Part shown: positions 57,795 to 63,906 of the stretch, piece by piece
Layout: each line of letters starts with the position of its first letter
Numbering within the stretch: the first letter of the stretch is position 1
Assembly: GCF_006716115.1 (NCBI RefSeq)
Contig: NZ_VFOO01000001.1
Coordinates: forward strand, 1,116,001-1,180,000
Length of the DNA: 64,000 bases
Source of the DNA: Subtercola boreus
Lineage (GTDB): Bacteria; Actinomycetota; Actinomycetes; Actinomycetales; Microbacteriaceae
Direction of reading: 5' to 3'
Program-made: the position numbers and the translations under genes
The notes under the pieces: generated by a model
The model's database searches: none
What the model was told of the DNA's origin: nothing
The model's input: the letters and a program-made list of their open reading frames with translations, nothing else

Positions 57795-60700
57795 TCAGCG
57801 GAAGTCGCAGGAACGGGTCGGCGCGCCGAGCGGCAGCAGCTCGATGCGGTCGGCGACAAGGTTGATGATGCCGTCGTCGGTGCGCTCGAGGATGCCCCGG
57901 ACCACCATCGCCGGCGCCTCCCGGGCGACACGGCGGTAGCGGCTCCACACCCCCACGCTGCAGATCACGTTCAGGATGCCCGTCTCGTCTTCGAGGTTCA
58001 CGAAGGTGATGCCGCTGGCGGTCGCCGGACGCTGCCGGTGCGTCACCACCCCGCCGACCTCGATGCGGCGCCCGTTCTCGCACGTCTGCAGCTTCTCGAT
58101 CGAGAGGGCACCCCGGTCATCCAACCAGTCCCGGGAGTGCGCGACCGGATGGTCATCCGGGGAGATACCGGTGCTCCACAGGTCGTAGACCACCTGCTCG
58201 GTGGGGCTCAGCATCGGCAGCAGCGGCGGTTGCACACTCACGTGGGTGCCCTGCAGGAACTCGGGGCGGTCCTGGGCGGCGTTGCCGGCCTCCCACAGTG
58301 CCTCCCGCCGGGTCAGATGGAGGCTCGTGAAGGCTCCGGCCGAGGCCAGGGCCTCCATCTCGGCGGTGTTGAGGTCGTTGCGCCGGGCCACATCGGCCAT
58401 GTCGCGGTACGCGCCGCCGCGGCCCCGTTCCGTGACGATGCGTTCGGCGAGCTTCGCACCGATCGAGGTGATCTCGGCGAGCCCCAGCCGCACGTCGAGA
58501 TTGCCGTCGCGACGGTGCTGCCGGTAGTCGGCCGGAACCGACCGGTCGAACACCTCGCTCGGCAGGTGGTCGGCGGTGTGCAGGCACGCGTCCATCCCGG
58601 TCGCGGCGGTCAGCCCACCGCCGACCTCGGTGCCACGGCCCGCGTCGCGCCCGGCCGCGCCACCTCCCGCGGCACCCGCACGCGCCGCGCTCGGCTCGAG
58701 CCCCGCCATCACCCCCGAGCGCTGGATGTCGGGGCGGTGCACCACGACACCGTGCCGCCGGGCATCCGCCACCAGCGTCTGCGGCGAGTAGAAGCCCATC
58801 GGCTGGGCGCGCAACAGCGACGCGAGGAACGCCGCCGGGTAGTGCAGCTTGAACCACGAACTGGCGTACACGAGCAACGCGAAGCTGTTCGAGTGGCTCT
58901 CGGCGAACCCGAAACTCGCGAAGGCCTCGATCTTCTGGTAGATCTGCTCGGCGACATCGGGAGCGATGCCGTTCGACGCCATCCCCTCGAACAGTTTCGA
59001 CTTCAGCGACGAGATCTTCTCGATGCCGCGCTTGGACCCCATCGCCCGCCGGAGCAGGTCGGCGTCTTCGGGTGAGCAGTTGCCGACCGCCTGCGCCACC
59101 TGCATAAGCTGCTCCTGGAAGAGCGGAACCCCGAGCGTGCGTTCGAGAGGTTCTTCGAGCAGCGGGTGCAGGTATGTCACGGGTTCCTGCTTGAGCTTGC
59201 GCCGGATGTACGGATGTACGGCACCGCCCTGGATCGGCCCGGGCCGGATGAGCGCGATCTCCACCACCAGGTCGTAGAACTGGCGCGGCTGCAGCCGGGG
59301 GAGTGTGCCCATCTGCGCCCGGCTCTCGACCTGGAACACCCCGATCGAGTCGGCGCGGCAGAGCATGTCGTACACCCCCTGCTCCTCCTTGGGGATGCTC
59401 TTCAGACTCCACTCCTCGCCCAGGTGCTCGCGGGCGAGATCGAGCGAGTGCTGCAACGCCGACAGCATGCCGAGCCCGAGCAGGTCGAACTTGACGAGGC
59501 CCATCCACGCACAGTCGTCCTTGTCCCACTGCAGAACGGTTCGACCATCCATTCGTCCGTTCTCGATCGGGCAGACCTCACCGACGGGACGGTCAGTGAG
59601 CACCATCCCTCCCGAATGGATGCCCATGTGCCGCGGGAACTTCAGCACCTGCTCCGCCAGGTCGATCACGTCGGCCGGAATGTCGTGGTCTTCGCTCGCC
59701 ACCGTCGACCCCCACCGCTCGATCTGTTTCGACCAGGCGTCCTGCTGGCCGGGGCTGTGCCCGAGCGCCTTGGCCATGTCGCGCACCGCGAACTTGGGCC
59801 GGTAGGTGATCACGTTCGCGACCTGGGCGGCGTTTCGGCGACCGTACTTGCGATACACGTACTGGATGACCTCCTCCCGTCTGTCGGAGTCGAAATCCAC
59901 ATCGATGTCCGGTTCTTCATCGCGCATGCTCGACAGGAACCGTTCGAACGGCAGCTTGTAGAAGATCGAGTCGACCGCCGTGATGTCGAGGATGAAGCAG
60001 ACCGCCGAGTTCGCCGCCGACCCGCGCCCCTGGCAGAGGATGCCGAGCCGCCGCGCCTCGTGCACGATGTCGCGCACGATCAGGAAGTAGCCCGGGAAGT
60101 CCTTCTGTTCGATGACCGCGAGTTCGCTCTGGATGCGCTTCCGGTCGTCATCGGTCGCATGGGGGTAGTGCGTGGGCATCGCTTCGTCGACCAGCTGGCG
60201 CAGCCAGCTCATGGGCGTGTGGCCTTCTGGAACCTCCTGCCGGGGCAGTTTCGGTTTCGCCGTGCGGAGCTGGAACGAGAGGTCGTCGGCAACCTCGACC
60301 GTGCGTTCGACAGCACCCGGGTACCGCGCGAAACGTGCGGCCATCTCGGCACCCGAGCGCAGGTGCGAGCCCGCGGATGCCGGCAGCCAGCCTTCGAGGT
60401 CGTCGAGGCTCCGGCGTGCCCGGACGGCAGCCAGCGCCTGCCCGAGCGGGAACTGTTTCGGCGTGGCGTAGTGCACGTTGCCGGTCGCGACCGTGTCGAC
60501 GCGATGCTTCTGCGCCAGTTCGAACAGGGCGTCGTTCGCGTCGCTGTCGAGCGGGTTGCCGTGGTCGAAGAGTTCGACCAGCACGTTGTCGCGGCCGAAC
60601 AACGCAACGAGCCTGTCGAGCTCACGGGAGGCCCCGGGCAGCCCGTCGGAGGCGAGCGCCTGCCGCACCGCTCCCTTGCGGCAGCCGGTCAGCACCATCC

Positions 60701-61340
60701 ATGCGGAGTCGCCCGAACCACCCGGCCCACCCCTCGCCTCGCTGCCGTCGGCTCCGCTGCCCCCGCGTGCCTGGTCGGCCAGCTGCTCGAGGTCGTAGAG
60801 CGGCCTTCCCTTCTCGGCGTCGACGGCGAGCTGCCCCGTCGTGATCGCGCCGGAGAGCCGGTGGTACCCCTCCTGCTTGCGCGCAAGGATCACGAGGTGG
60901 GTCCCCTCGGGATCGGCCATGCCGTTCTGCGGCTTGCTCAGCCCGAGAGAGAGTTCCGCACCGAAGACCGTCGCGACACTCGGGTAGGCCTCGGCAGCCT
61001 CCGCCAGGTGCACCACCCCGTAGAAGCCGTCGTGGTCGGTGAGGGCCAGCCCGTGCATCCGGAGCCTGGCGGCTTCTTCGAGAAGTTCTTCGGGGGACGA
61101 CGCGCCGTCGAGGAAGCTGAAGTTCGAATGGGCATGCAGCTCGGCATAGCCCACGAAGGGACCGTCGTCGAGTTCGAGCTCGGGTTTCGGCGGAAGAGTC
61201 GGCGGAACATACGGCATGCGCTTGCGCGAGAACGCTGGCCCGTCGCCACCGTCCTTGCTCTCATCCGCCCCGGGTCGCCGAACGTCGGAGAGCCGCCGCT
61301 CGAGTTCCGACCACGGAATCGGAGGGTTGTTGAATCCCAT
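57795..61340 (-). CDS. dnaE2: Error-prone DNA polymerase DnaE2 (ImuC)
   Basis: A 1181-residue C-family polymerase of the SOS mutasome. The N-terminal PHP domain shows YAELHAHSNFSFLDGASSPE. The catalytic Asp residues are in EPDIDVDFDSDRREEVIQYV (about 477-487). Thumb/fingers segments include GRGSAANSAVCFILDITAVD, KFPRHMGIHSGGMVLTDRPV and SFGFAESHSNSFALLVYASS. An OB-fold lies near the end (VGGVVTHRQRPATASGITFV). Two Gly/Ala-rich insertions sit at about 215-230 and 880-905. The ATG at 61340 overlaps the stop of a short ORF that follows imuB. Expected to act with ImuB and ImuA' in damage-induced mutagenesis. Confidence 0.95.
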   Translation of the reverse strand: MGFNNPPIPWSELERRLSDVRRPGADESKDGGDGPAFSRKRMPYVPPTLPPKPELELDDGPFVGYAELHAHSNFSFLDGASSPEELLEEAARLRMHGLALTDHDGFYGVVHLAEAAEAYPSVATVFGAELSLGLSKPQNGMADPEGTHLVILARKQEGYHRLSGAITTGQLAVDAEKGRPLYDLEQLADQARGGSGADGSEARGGPGGSGDSAWMVLTGCRKGAVRQALASDGLPGASRELDRLVALFGRDNVLVELFDHGNPLDSDANDALFELAQKHRVDTVATGNVHYATPKQFPLGQALAAVRARRSLDDLEGWLPASAGSHLRSGAEMAARFARYPGAVERTVEVADDLSFQLRTAKPKLPRQEVPEGHTPMSWLRQLVDEAMPTHYPHATDDDRKRIQSELAVIEQKDFPGYFLIVRDIVHEARRLGILCQGRGSAANSAVCFILDITAVDSIFYKLPFERFLSSMRDEEPDIDVDFDSDRREEVIQYVYRKYGRRNAAQVANVITYRPKFAVRDMAKALGHSPGQQDAWSKQIERWGSTVASEDHDIPADVIDLAEQVLKFPRHMGIHSGGMVLTDRPVGEVCPIENGRMDGRTVLQWDKDDCAWMGLVKFDLLGLGMLSALQHSLDLAREHLGEEWSLKSIPKEEQGVYDMLCRADSIGVFQVESRAQMGTLPRLQPRQFYDLVVEIALIRPGPIQGGAVHPYIRRKLKQEPVTYLHPLLEEPLERTLGVPLFQEQLMQVAQAVGNCSPEDADLLRRAMGSKRGIEKISSLKSKLFEGMASNGIAPDVAEQIYQKIEAFASFGFAESHSNSFALLVYASSWFKLHYPAAFLASLLRAQPMGFYSPQTLVADARRHGVVVHRPDIQRSGVMAGLEPSAARAGAAGGGAAGRDAGRGTEVGGGLTAATGMDACLHTADHLPSEVFDRSVPADYRQHRRDGNLDVRLGLAEITSIGAKLAERIVTERGRGGAYRDMADVARRNDLNTAEMEALASAGAFTSLHLTRREALWEAGNAAQDRPEFLQGTHVSVQPPLLPMLSPTEQVVYDLWSTGISPDDHPVAHSRDWLDDRGALSIEKLQTCENGRRIEVGGVVTHRQRPATASGITFVNLEDETGILNVICSVGVWSRYRRVAREAPAMVVRGILERTDDGIINLVADRIELLPLGAPTRSCDFR

Positions 61341-61483
61341 CAGCGACCACCTCCCGCAGGGGCGACGGGCGCGGTGCAGGTGGGAGCAAGCCCCGCAAGC
61401 CCCGCAAGCCCCGCAAGCCCCGCGCACGCCGCGCGCGCCGCGCGCGCCGCGCCGCCGGCGGTCGTCGCAGTCTGCTCAGTCAT
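61340..61483 (-). CDS. 47-codon low-complexity ORF linking imuB to dnaE2
   Basis: ATG at 61483 starts within the imuB 3' end (ATGACTGA, overlap 8 bp) and the TGA stop shares its A with the dnaE2 ATG (TGATG). The product is MTEQTATTAGGAARAARAAC followed by four GLA repeats and TCTAPVAPAGGGR. It is encoded largely by 9-bp tandem repeats. GGAGG lies just before the dnaE2 start (61352-61348). It may be a coupling ORF rather than a functional protein. I recognise no family. Confidence 0.4.
   Translation of the reverse strand: MTEQTATTAGGAARAARAACAGLAGLAGLAGLAPTCTAPVAPAGGGR
61386..61457. repeat. 9-bp tandem repeats between imuB and dnaE2
   Basis: Four exact GCAAGCCCC units (61386-61421) are followed by four diverged 9-mers of the GCGCGCGCC type (61422-61457). 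On the minus strand they encode (GLA)4 preceded by Ala/Arg triplets. Confidence 0.92.
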
Positions 61484-63137
61484 AGCGCGCCTCCGCCCAC
61501 CAGCCATGGTCGTGCAGGGCCAGCAGCCAGGCCGTTCCCTCGGAGTCGACCACTTGGAAGCGGTGGAAAGACCGGGCGACCGCCTGGTCCCACCATCGTT
61601 CGTGAACGGGCCACGGACCGGTCCACGCGCTGAGTGGCTGCGGTCGGGGCACAGTGGACAACCCGGCACCGCCGCCGCCGGCTCTACCTCCGCCGCCTCC
61701 GCCGCCGGCTCCACCACTACCGCCACCGCCGACACTCGCGCCCGCGCCCCCGCCCGGCGGCGGCGTGTCGAGCACCGCGAACAGCGCCGGCACGCCGACC
61801 AGCGCCCCGCGCTCGCTCACCTCGACCGGCCCGCCGTCGTGCGCCAGCACCGTCACGCGCCGGGGCTTCTCGAACACCGTCGACGGAGCCGGCAGCGGAA
61901 TGCTGCCCGGCCACGGCTTGGAGTCGTCACCACCCGCACGCGGGTCGCCCCACGGCACCATGACCTGACGCTCGGAGACACCACGCCCCCCAGCGATGAC
62001 CGCCGTCGTCACGGCACCGTGCCCCAGCAGGCTCTGCACCCGGGACAGTCCGTGGTGGATGCGGTCGTCGGGCGCACTGCCCCACAGCCCCGTCTCGTAG
62101 TTGCCGATCGAGTCGAGGCCCTCCGGCAGCACGCGCACCTTCGTGATCGCCGAGGTGAGCGCCCCTGCGCCCGCACCCGTTCGCCCCTGCACCTGCCAGC
62201 GGATACGGTCGAGCACATCGTTGGCGCTGAACCAGCGCGGATGCCCCCACCCGCGGTCGTGTACCACTCCGTTGTCGGTGTGCAGCTCGACCCGGATGCT
62301 CGTGCAGACCAGCAGCGCACGGGTGAGTTCGTCGACGAACCGCTCGGCGGCCGTGCGCACCGCGAAGGTGATCTGGTCGACCCGGTCGAGGGGTGGCTCG
62401 AACGCGACCTCGATGTCGCGCAGCTGAGGGGGGAGCCGGGGCACGACCCGCCGGGAATCCCTGCCACTCGCCATGGTGTGCGCGTGCACCCCGGCCTCGC
62501 CGAACCGGGCCCGCACATCGCGGAAGTCGAGGGCCGCGAAGGCACCCAGTGTCGTGAGCCCCAGGCGCCGCAGCAGGGTCGCCAGCTGCAGGTCGCCGAT
62601 GGCCTCGATCGGATGCTCGGCCAGGAACTCGGGCGAGCCGCCGGGTTCGACGATACGGATGGCCTGCTCACCGGGCATGCGGGCAAGCTGCTCGGCAGCG
62701 AACCTGCCGTCGGCGATGGTGATGCGGGCGTCTTCGGCTCCCAGCCCCACCAAAGTGGTGAGCAGAACCCCGGCAGCACCCCTCTCGCCGCCGTAGTACC
62801 GGCTCGGGCCCTTGGCCACCAGCGCACACATGCCGGGCCGGAGCACCTGCACCCCCGGCATCAGCTCCTCGACGGCGGCTACCACCAGCTCGAAGCTGCG
62901 GTGGTCGAGGGCGGGGTCGTAGTCGAACGTCATCAGATCGACGCAGGCAGCCTGCGCCTCGCGTACCCGTTGGCCGCGCCGCACACCGTCGGCCCGGGCC
63001 CGCGGCGAGCACGCGAACACGAGACCGTGGTCGATCAGCGCGATCGGTTCGTCGAGCGAGAGCTCCTCCGACTGGGCCAGGGCGCGCACCGGCCAGTCGG
63101 GACACCACACCACGATGGTGCGCACAGCCATCGTCAT
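61476..63137 (-). CDS. imuB: ImuB, catalytically inactive Y-family polymerase homologue
   Basis: A 553-residue protein of the DinB/ImuB superfamily that acts as the hub between DnaE2, ImuA' and the beta clamp. It starts TMAVRTIVVWCPDWPVRALA, with palm/finger-like parts (IALIDHGLVFACSPRARADG, VRRGQRVREAQAACVDLMTF) and HhH/little-finger regions (LARMPGEQAIRIVEPGG, LATLLRRLGLTTLGAFAALD). The acidic catalytic motif S-x-D-E of active Y polymerases is replaced by AKGPSRYYGGERG, so no polymerase activity is expected. A long Gly-rich linker (about 455-490) precedes a C-terminal domain. Start ATG at 63137, 2 bp after the imuA' stop. Confidence 0.92.
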   Translation of the reverse strand: MTMAVRTIVVWCPDWPVRALAQSEELSLDEPIALIDHGLVFACSPRARADGVRRGQRVREAQAACVDLMTFDYDPALDHRSFELVVAAVEELMPGVQVLRPGMCALVAKGPSRYYGGERGAAGVLLTTLVGLGAEDARITIADGRFAAEQLARMPGEQAIRIVEPGGSPEFLAEHPIEAIGDLQLATLLRRLGLTTLGAFAALDFRDVRARFGEAGVHAHTMASGRDSRRVVPRLPPQLRDIEVAFEPPLDRVDQITFAVRTAAERFVDELTRALLVCTSIRVELHTDNGVVHDRGWGHPRWFSANDVLDRIRWQVQGRTGAGAGALTSAITKVRVLPEGLDSIGNYETGLWGSAPDDRIHHGLSRVQSLLGHGAVTTAVIAGGRGVSERQVMVPWGDPRAGGDDSKPWPGSIPLPAPSTVFEKPRRVTVLAHDGGPVEVSERGALVGVPALFAVLDTPPPGGGAGASVGGGGSGGAGGGGGGGRAGGGGAGLSTVPRPQPLSAWTGPWPVHERWWDQAVARSFHRFQVVDSEGTAWLLALHDHGWWAEARYD

Positions 63138-63139
63138 GA

Positions 63140-63871
63140 TCAGCTCGCCAGTTCCCGGGTGCCTGCGAAAGCCGGCCATGCCGCCCGGCCCGCGTCGGCA
63201 CCCCGCCCCGCGTCCCGCACCTGCTCCGAGGCATCCGGCAGCCACAGCCGGGCCGTGCGCTTCTGGCCCATGAACCCCTTGCCCCGCGCGCTCACCGTCA
63301 CCTGGCGGCTCGCGAGGTGACCGAAGCCCTGGCCGATGCCCTGCCAGCTGCTCTCGGTGATGCGCAGGGTGGCCTCGCTCTGTGGCCAGTCGCCCAGCAC
63401 GATCATCGTGGCCTCACGCTGCCTGATGCGTGCCGCCAGCCGGGCCGCCAGCGCATCACCGAGTCGCGGGGGAGCGACGGTGACGACCACCGTGACCACG
63501 TCGATCACAGCCGACACCACGGCCAGCCACTGCTCACCGGGATGCGGCACGAAGACCAGCCTGTCGAGGTCGATACCGGAGCGACTGGCGGCCTCGGCCC
63601 CGAAGTCGGGCAGCCCGACGACACCGCACCAGGCGCCGGCCGCAGACGGCCCCGCCATCATCGCCATGGCGAGGGAGTGCGACCCCTCGACCGAGTACGC
63701 GGCTCCGGCCTTCAGCGCCCCACCGGGGAGCAGGGACGCCAGCGCTGGAGTCGTCTGCAGGTTGCGGGTCTCGAGTTTCGTGGCCTGCATCTGGCGGATG
63801 CGCTCCTGCAGTTCGCGCACCGAGGGAGCCGCGGGGGCGGCTTCGGCGAGAAGAACAGCAGGGTCTGGCAT
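63140..63871 (-). CDS. imuA': ImuA' (RecA-fold mutasome accessory protein)
   Basis: A 243-residue protein. The first gene of the actinobacterial imuA'-imuB-dnaE2 cassette; ImuA' has a partial RecA-like fold. The sequence begins PDPAVLLAEAAPAAPSVREL, then LASLLPGGALKAGAAYSVEG and SLAMAMMAGPSAAGAWCGVV, where RecA would have its P-loop; no intact G-x-x-x-x-G-K-T is seen. The C-terminal part includes RITESSWQGIGQGFGHLASR and QVTVSARGKGFMGQKR. An ATG at 63889 is in frame but lies inside the LexA box, so I place the start at 63871, which also fits a leaderless transcript. Confidence 0.88.
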   Translation of the reverse strand: MPDPAVLLAEAAPAAPSVRELQERIRQMQATKLETRNLQTTPALASLLPGGALKAGAAYSVEGSHSLAMAMMAGPSAAGAWCGVVGLPDFGAEAASRSGIDLDRLVFVPHPGEQWLAVVSAVIDVVTVVVTVAPPRLGDALAARLAARIRQREATMIVLGDWPQSEATLRITESSWQGIGQGFGHLASRQVTVSARGKGFMGQKRTARLWLPDASEQVRDAGRGADAGRAAWPAFAGTRELAS

Positions 63872-63877
63872 GCCCCA

Positions 63878-63906
63878 ATATTCGAACATATGTTCGAATA
63901 AGTCAA
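63878..63906 (-). promoter_or_regulatory. SOS promoter of imuA'-imuB-dnaE2
   Basis: On the minus strand, -35 TTGACT (63906-63901), a 17-nt spacer and -10 GAATAT (63883-63878) are followed by 6 nt and the ATG at 63871. The LexA box fills the spacer and overlaps the -10 box, so bound LexA would block RNA polymerase. Confidence 0.7.
63882..63897. promoter_or_regulatory. LexA-binding SOS box
   Basis: TCGAACATATGTTCGA is a perfect 16-bp palindrome that matches the actinobacterial LexA consensus TCGAAC-N4-GTTCGA at every fixed position. Confidence 0.93.

Follow-up and report, generated by a model that had tools for sequence, protein, structure and literature searches.

Translational coupling of a short ORF to the gene that follows it has been described in several bacterial settings. 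In mycobacteria, small-protein ORFs are coupled to downstream genes, and this coupled arrangement can be maintained even where the peptide sequence is not (Shell et al. 2015, PMC4633059). MIRU repeats also carry an ORF that is coupled to a gene (Supply et al. 1997, cited after the review PMC12548453), and an insertion of this type need not break expression because the ORF of the insert couples to the gene. Short gaps strongly reduce translational coupling; in E. coli gene pairs a gap of 14 nt cost 40-80% of reinitiation and one of 38 nt nearly all of it (Huber et al. 2023, PMC10666635).

The window (the whole stretch of 64,000 nucleotides from Subtercola boreus that was analysed) carries imuA', imuB and dnaE2 in a row, and between imuB and dnaE2 lies a micro-ORF that touches both genes, referred to here as the relay (Table 1). 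The second gene is taken to be imuB from its Pfam IMS match and its position after imuA'. The palindrome before the row, GAACATATGTTC, resembles the actinobacterial LexA box, and three genes in a row behind a LexA-like palindrome have the composition of an imuA'-imuB-dnaE2 mutasome operon. The imuB-dnaE2 spacer is 135 nt long with a GC content of 82%. In Subtercola boreus P27444 the DnaE2 N-terminus is 97% identical, and the junction duplicates that of locus L005. Near its C-terminus (window ~61660-61770, minus strand, within imuB) ImuB also has a glycine-rich low-complexity stretch with tandem repeats of its own.

Table 1. Features of the imuB-dnaE2 junction and of the surrounding gene row (window positions)
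Feature	Position	Strand	Evidence or remark
imuA'	63140..63871	-	first gene of the row; NCBIfam NF058630 ImuA', 5.4e-52
imuB (Y-family polymerase relative)	61476..63137	-	Pfam IMS 7.8e-8; C-terminus A-E-A-R-Y-D-stop
dnaE2 (error-prone polymerase III alpha)	57795..61340	-	NCBIfam NF004225 error-prone DNA polymerase, 1413 bits
LexA-box-like palindrome GAACATATGTTC	63884..63895	.	just upstream of imuA'
Relay micro-ORF, 47 codons ATG...TGA, MTEQTATTAGGAARAARAACAGLAGLAGLAGLAPTCTAPVAPAGGGR	61340..61483	-	no conserved peptide; architecture kept in relatives
Relay start codon over imuB stop, ATGACTGA, 8-nt overlap	61476..61483	-	same site in 12/12 Subtercola
TGATG, relay stop with 1-nt overlap with dnaE2 start	61338..61342	-	sequence and relatives
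GGAGG within imuB codons GCG GAG GC., 6 nt before relay ATG	61490..61494	-	predicted Shine-Dalgarno of the relay
GGAGGTGG, within the relay ORF	61347..61354	-	predicted Shine-Dalgarno of dnaE2; duplex energy -11.6 kcal/mol
9-bp tandem repeat tract	61386..61457	-	7.9 degenerate copies, 84% match

The relay ATG sits in the last imuB codons, TAT GAC TGA, which form the restart motif TATGACTGA. A sequence-only reading of this DNA had proposed a 47-codon ORF with both overlaps, which the sequence bears out, and had pointed out correctly that changes by whole 9-bp units preserve its frame. The ORF is not, as was also stated, built mostly from 9-bp repeats; these account for 72 of its 144 nt, about half, and their perfect part is limited to 4.2 copies of the 9-mer (61386-61423). 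With both overlaps present, the anatomy would indeed be able to couple imuB to dnaE2.

The micro-ORF is most probably a translational relay, indifferent to its own sequence, that keeps imuB and dnaE2 translationally coupled across a growing spacer. A ribosome ending imuB would (re)initiate at the overlapping ATG, aided by the GGAGG within imuB, would translate a relay peptide of no importance, and would then terminate on TGATG and (re)initiate on dnaE2, aided by GGAGGTGG. In sister lineages there is a direct overlap of the two genes at TGATG. Because termination-reinitiation works only across an overlap or a very small gap, selection acting on a lengthening spacer (one extended by tandem duplication, for instance) would tend to preserve a frame that stays open and is coupled to the gene on either side, while sequence and length of the relay would otherwise drift. 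A gap of 135 nt would break TGATG coupling unless it were translated through, which is what the relay would do; the benefit would presumably be the co-production of two mutasome subunits. The anatomy, the agreement of phase across genomes and a matching placement of Shine-Dalgarno sequences can be read directly from the junctions, and comparison between genomes gives good support to a predicted coupling of imuB and dnaE2.

As in the mycobacterial coupled ORFs (PMC4633059), the ORF is short, its stop overlaps the start of the next gene (here at TGATG 61342-61338), and Shine-Dalgarno sequences are found in wobble positions of upstream genes. The mycobacterial ORFs begin leaderless transcripts and use an RTGA overlap, whereas the relay is internal to a gene row; its ATG lies within imuB of the imuA'-imuB-dnaE2 row, which argues against a leaderless start. 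Unlike those ORFs it is linked to a gene on either side and occupies a place at which the genes of sister lineages directly overlap. With MIRU (PMC12548453) the junction shares an insert that carries repeats, lies at the start of a gene and contains an ORF coupled to that gene, but MIRU is a mobile repeat family with a -4 spacing, whereas relay inserts are mostly unrelated between species, and what relays keep, unlike MIRU, is start, stop and phase. In the studied genome a two-unit pattern of the repeat (at most one mismatch) was found only at the imuB-dnaE2 junction, with no dispersed MIRU-like family. Direct termination-reinitiation pairs (PMC10666635) have the same -1 and -8 overlaps and also join subunits of one complex; the relay differs from them in being two couplings in series around a dispensable ORF. 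A word search of the polymerase survey PMC12926913 did not return 'overlap' or 'intergenic', and no description of an imuB-dnaE2 relay was found in the titles and abstract openings of the literature searched. The imuB-dnaE2 arrangement can be regarded as a novel and well-documented form of coupled small ORF.

Within the genus, 12 Subtercola genomes were compared among the matches listed (the studied genome included, one genome per species; in one of them dnaE2 is split over two contigs, its junction being L016). Their spacers are 29, 30, 32, 44, 60, 60, 66, 111, 116, 135, 135 and 152 nt long and mostly unrelated to one another in sequence. All 12 nonetheless have an ORF that begins at the same ATG and stops near the dnaE2 start (-7 to +11): seven end exactly at TGATG, one at -7, and four at +8 or +11 within dnaE2. 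The sequence-only reading had named the lack of such an ORF in relatives as a refutation; on this count it stands. It had also put weight on the repeats, read as GLA, and these are not the conserved feature, since most relatives have unrelated spacers and the GGGGCTTGC repeat is at the imuB-dnaE2 junction of the studied genome only (1/12). The related proposal that changes in repeat number act as a contingency switch tuning mutagenesis is thus very improbable: the 4.2 perfect copies could slip, but slippage may be nearly silent as 9-bp units keep the relay. That repeat number would tune the DnaE2/ImuB ratio is likewise conjectural.

When compared by eye, the 12 relay peptides have little in common past the forced MTE/MTD start, except between near sisters such as L010 and L011, so that, as in the mycobacterial case, the linkage is kept and the peptide is not. 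An open frame in every Subtercola genome might be expected of a functional micropeptide, yet this divergence, together with the lack of a match to the relay peptide in Pfam and NCBIfam, makes such a product highly improbable. A second reading of the repeats (GAC) had been suggested to extend DnaE2 from an upstream start. The dnaE2 frame does exist upstream, with a GTG at 61427 (RGACGACGACGAC), but it has a stop within the spacer in 5/12 Subtercola and its open upstream part includes an ATG or GTG in only 4/12; an extended DnaE2 is therefore not a shared feature and appears unlikely.

To place these junctions in a wider frame, loci were fetched by similarity to the DnaE2 N-terminus in three sets. 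The family set, confined to the better matches (175/249 family genomes matched), comprised 138 loci, 134 of them usable and including the 12 Subtercola; four were dropped owing to a contig break (L015) or because no imuB was found (L054, L062, L111). The named set of 80 loci gave 57 junctions after removal of 6 without imuB and 17 duplicates or poor alignments, and the order/phylum set of 52 loci gave 24 (20 without a usable junction, 8 duplicate or poor). Among the matches listed this makes 215 junctions, of which 38 are direct imuB-dnaE2 overlaps, 130 combine a 9-200 nt spacer with a restart codon (a start codon at the imuB stop; 113 ATG, 17 GTG), 31 have such a spacer without a restart codon, 13 have a spacer longer than 200 nt and 3 a gap shorter than 9 nt. 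Where two restart codons were present (L137, L191, L210), the rule was to take the codon nearer the dnaE2 start; relatedness was handled by collapsing genera.

In 88 of the 215 junctions (among the matches listed) the imuB stop carries a start codon and the dnaE2 start is overlapped by a stop; an in-frame relay joins the two ends exactly in 84 of these 88, where one third would be expected. The exceptions are L011, L139, L185 and L238. Three spacer sequences that occur twice among the restart junctions are counted twice in the 88 and the 130; by distinct spacer the count is 81/85. In the family set, among the matches listed, exact relays make up 50 of 52 eligible junctions (p = 8e-22 against one third), about 23.9 of 25 when one junction per genus is taken, and 43 of 45 distinct combinations of genus, length and type; the named set gives 28/30. 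A stop overlaps the dnaE2 start in 88/130 junctions with a restart codon vs 3/31 without one, and the relay stop falls within -8 to +14 of the dnaE2 start in 123 of the 130 (outside in 7). Of the 42 restart junctions whose dnaE2 start is not overlapped by a stop, half (21) have their stop at +8/+11, within dnaE2; this stop goes along with codons common in dnaE2 and is a second frequent phase in some genera.

Three restart types can be recognized: TATGACTGA (8-nt overlap), GTGA/ATGA (4-nt, as in Curtobacterium) and TGATG-like (1-nt). These types differ in spacer length modulo 3. With the TATGAC restart it is 0 in 47/77, 2 in 23 and 1 in 7; with GTGA/ATGA it is 1 in 16/16 and with TGATG 1 in 27/37, while junctions without a restart codon (n = 31) are spread over 2 (16), 0 (10) and 1 (5). 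A programmed frameshift at the imuB end, extending ImuB through the spacer, would make use of the overlap between the relay frame and the imuB end, but that frame is +1 relative to imuB for TATGAC and +2 for GTGA/TGATG, thus varying by genome, and each relay has its own start codon with a fitting Shine-Dalgarno; such an event is very improbable. Tandem repeats offer weak support for the keeping of frame: their period is a multiple of 3 in 11/12 relays stopping near dnaE2 vs 4/9 restart-less junctions (p = 0.046), and in 11/13 over all restart junctions vs the same 4/9 (p = 0.074). Length steps within genera were multiples of 3 in 16/33 restart cases vs 1/4 without restart, which is not significant.

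Exact relays are 4 to 56 codons in size (median 12), and the shortest of them count further against a micropeptide. They also bear on the role of Rho. GC-rich spacers that are long and untranslated may well be targets of Rho, and a relay that covers the entire spacer could be translated mainly to keep Rho from ending transcription ahead of dnaE2, with dnaE2 reinitiation being secondary. This is rather unlikely as the main function, for shielding by itself needs no 1-base stop overlap with the dnaE2 start, exact relays can be as short as 4 codons, and restart-less spacers of up to 141 nt exist that have no LexA-like box (L272). Protection from Rho partly overlaps, as an alternative, with co-production as the benefit.

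A simpler possibility is that dnaE2 starts independently from its own Shine-Dalgarno, so that the spacer would be a neutral leader in which high GC has left an ORF by chance. The dnaE2 Shine-Dalgarno of the window is strong, the strength of this site does not differ between classes, and 31/161 spacer junctions lack a restart codon. Openness of the frame is also near expectation: 65/76 spacers are stop-free in the relay frame vs 59.1 +/- 3.2 in dinucleotide shuffles. Openness was accordingly rejected as the main proof, as shuffled high-GC spacers are nearly as open, and it is phase, not the absence of stops, that carries the signal. An independent start leaves unexplained the agreement of frame in all but four eligible junctions, as well as the Shine-Dalgarno within imuB that matches the restart codon (below), and is judged unlikely.

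The rate of relays at this junction is far above the background of the studied genome. The control consisted of 464 kb of sampled DNA (4 kb counted twice) with home-made gene calls whose starts are uncertain; the caller missed imuA' in the window. Relays running from a start at the upstream stop to a -1/-4 overlap were found in 7/156 other co-directional pairs with 9-200 nt spacers (154 distinct), and by the same criterion in 86/161 imuB-dnaE2 junctions across genomes. A background from -1 overlaps only (2/157, one being imuB-dnaE2 itself) was discarded as too low. Sites with a start codon make a relay in 7/35 cases vs 35/431 equivalent sites without one (p = 0.03), which points to a possible mild preference for relays at gene junctions generally. 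The imuA'-imuB junction (21 loci, 2 of which gave no imuA') was tried as a control and rejected: the gap is 1-4 nt in the 6 Subtercola loci whose alignment extends to the imuB start, and in the others the starts are too uncertain to score.

If the restart codon is of importance it should have a Shine-Dalgarno, and the Shine-Dalgarno sequences inside imuB are placed to fit the restart codon used, a second and independent signal. GGAGG stands ~6 nt before the ATG (codons GCG GAG GC.) in 55/79 TATGAC-restart junctions, and elsewhere in 1/37 TGATG restarts, 2/37 direct overlaps, 1/16 GTGA/ATGA and 8/36 junctions without a restart codon. Strength was scored by spacing-limited duplex energies. At the TATGAC site the median is -9.5 kcal/mol in users vs -5.8 to -5.9 in TGATG, direct, GTGA and restart-less junctions; at the TGATG site it is -7.2 (relay) and -7.3 kcal/mol (direct) vs -1.5 in TATGAC users and -1.6 in restart-less junctions. 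The strong TATGAC site is retained (-10.0) in 9 TATGAC junctions with spacers >200 nt. The contrast can be drawn within a genus in only 5 genera, 4/5 of which agree at each site.

Codon choice at the imuB end follows the same pattern. An arginine AGG/AGA occupies the third-last imuB codon in 41/74 TGATG-type or direct junctions vs 3/79 of TATGAC type (~5% elsewhere), and AGG at this arginine (18/37 TGATG relay, 19/37 direct) places a stretch of purines at a suitable spacing ahead of the ATG of TGATG. Tyrosine is encoded by TAT at the second-last codon in 96/200 cases vs 5/90 in the preceding imuB codons. The Shine-Dalgarno of dnaE2 itself is present in all junction classes with no difference in strength between them, and was thus rejected as a mark of coupling. 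Its region is predicted to be less accessible in restart than in restart-less junctions (0.30 vs 0.39, p = 0.003), which speaks for the relay, while direct overlaps, equal to the latter at 0.39, speak against it. Structure of the mRNA was also tried and rejected, as the studied junction folds no better than its shuffles (z = +1) and accessibility differs only modestly.

Junctions without a relay may in some cases control dnaE2 by other means. An exact LexA-like box lies 23-24 nt before dnaE2 in 5 junctions of the family and named sets (among the matches listed), all of them restart-less: L066 and L068 with spacers of 61 and 161 nt, and L070, L087 and L187 with 755-881 nt. Two named junctions with the box belong to Amnibacterium, and L303 and L309, which have long spacers, carry boxes that are similar by eye. 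No such box was found before dnaE2 in the restart junctions scanned in these two sets (among the matches listed). The data fit a choice by which dnaE2 would have either coupling or SOS control of its own, a contrast that rests on few cases given that 29/31 relay-less junctions with 9-200 nt spacers have no LexA-like box.

Longer inserts offer two further observations. In L122, L124, L129 and L106 (spacers 677-879 nt) TATGAC is retained where imuB ends and CTGATG where dnaE2 begins, and these inserts look as if an inserted gene had split a relay. The spacers of L079 and L134 contain a tandem duplicate of the imuB end itself (TATGACTGA or nearly so), which is a possible way for spacers to begin.

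It is conceivable, and put forward here only tentatively, that actinobacterial operons generally make use of doubly coupled relay ORFs, by which a growing spacer between genes that need to be co-translated is kept as an open frame of free sequence; imuB-dnaE2 would be the clearest example and the junction of a MoxR-type ATPase gene with a DUF58 gene the second, with some relay-less genomes giving dnaE2 its own LexA box instead. If ribosomes do use the imuB-dnaE2 relay, translational continuity between two subunits of a mutagenic polymerase would itself be under selection, strongly enough to preserve the frame of a meaningless peptide. The natural series of direct overlap, short relay, long relay and none would serve as a test of how far ribosomes can be handed on, and the case would be a warning that positionally conserved small ORFs need not encode functional peptides.

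The MoxR-DUF58 arrangement is seen in the studied genome (L250:4082-4148) and in L331-L334 and L350. In three Subtercola the spacers are 61, 61 and 85 nt long and unlike in sequence; in each of them an ORF connects the MoxR stop with the start of DUF58. Over 30 loci, 5 relays are exact at -1, 2 end at a -4 overlap and 1 at +7, and the remainder comprise 16 direct junctions or gaps <9 nt, 5 spacers without a restart codon and 1 long spacer.
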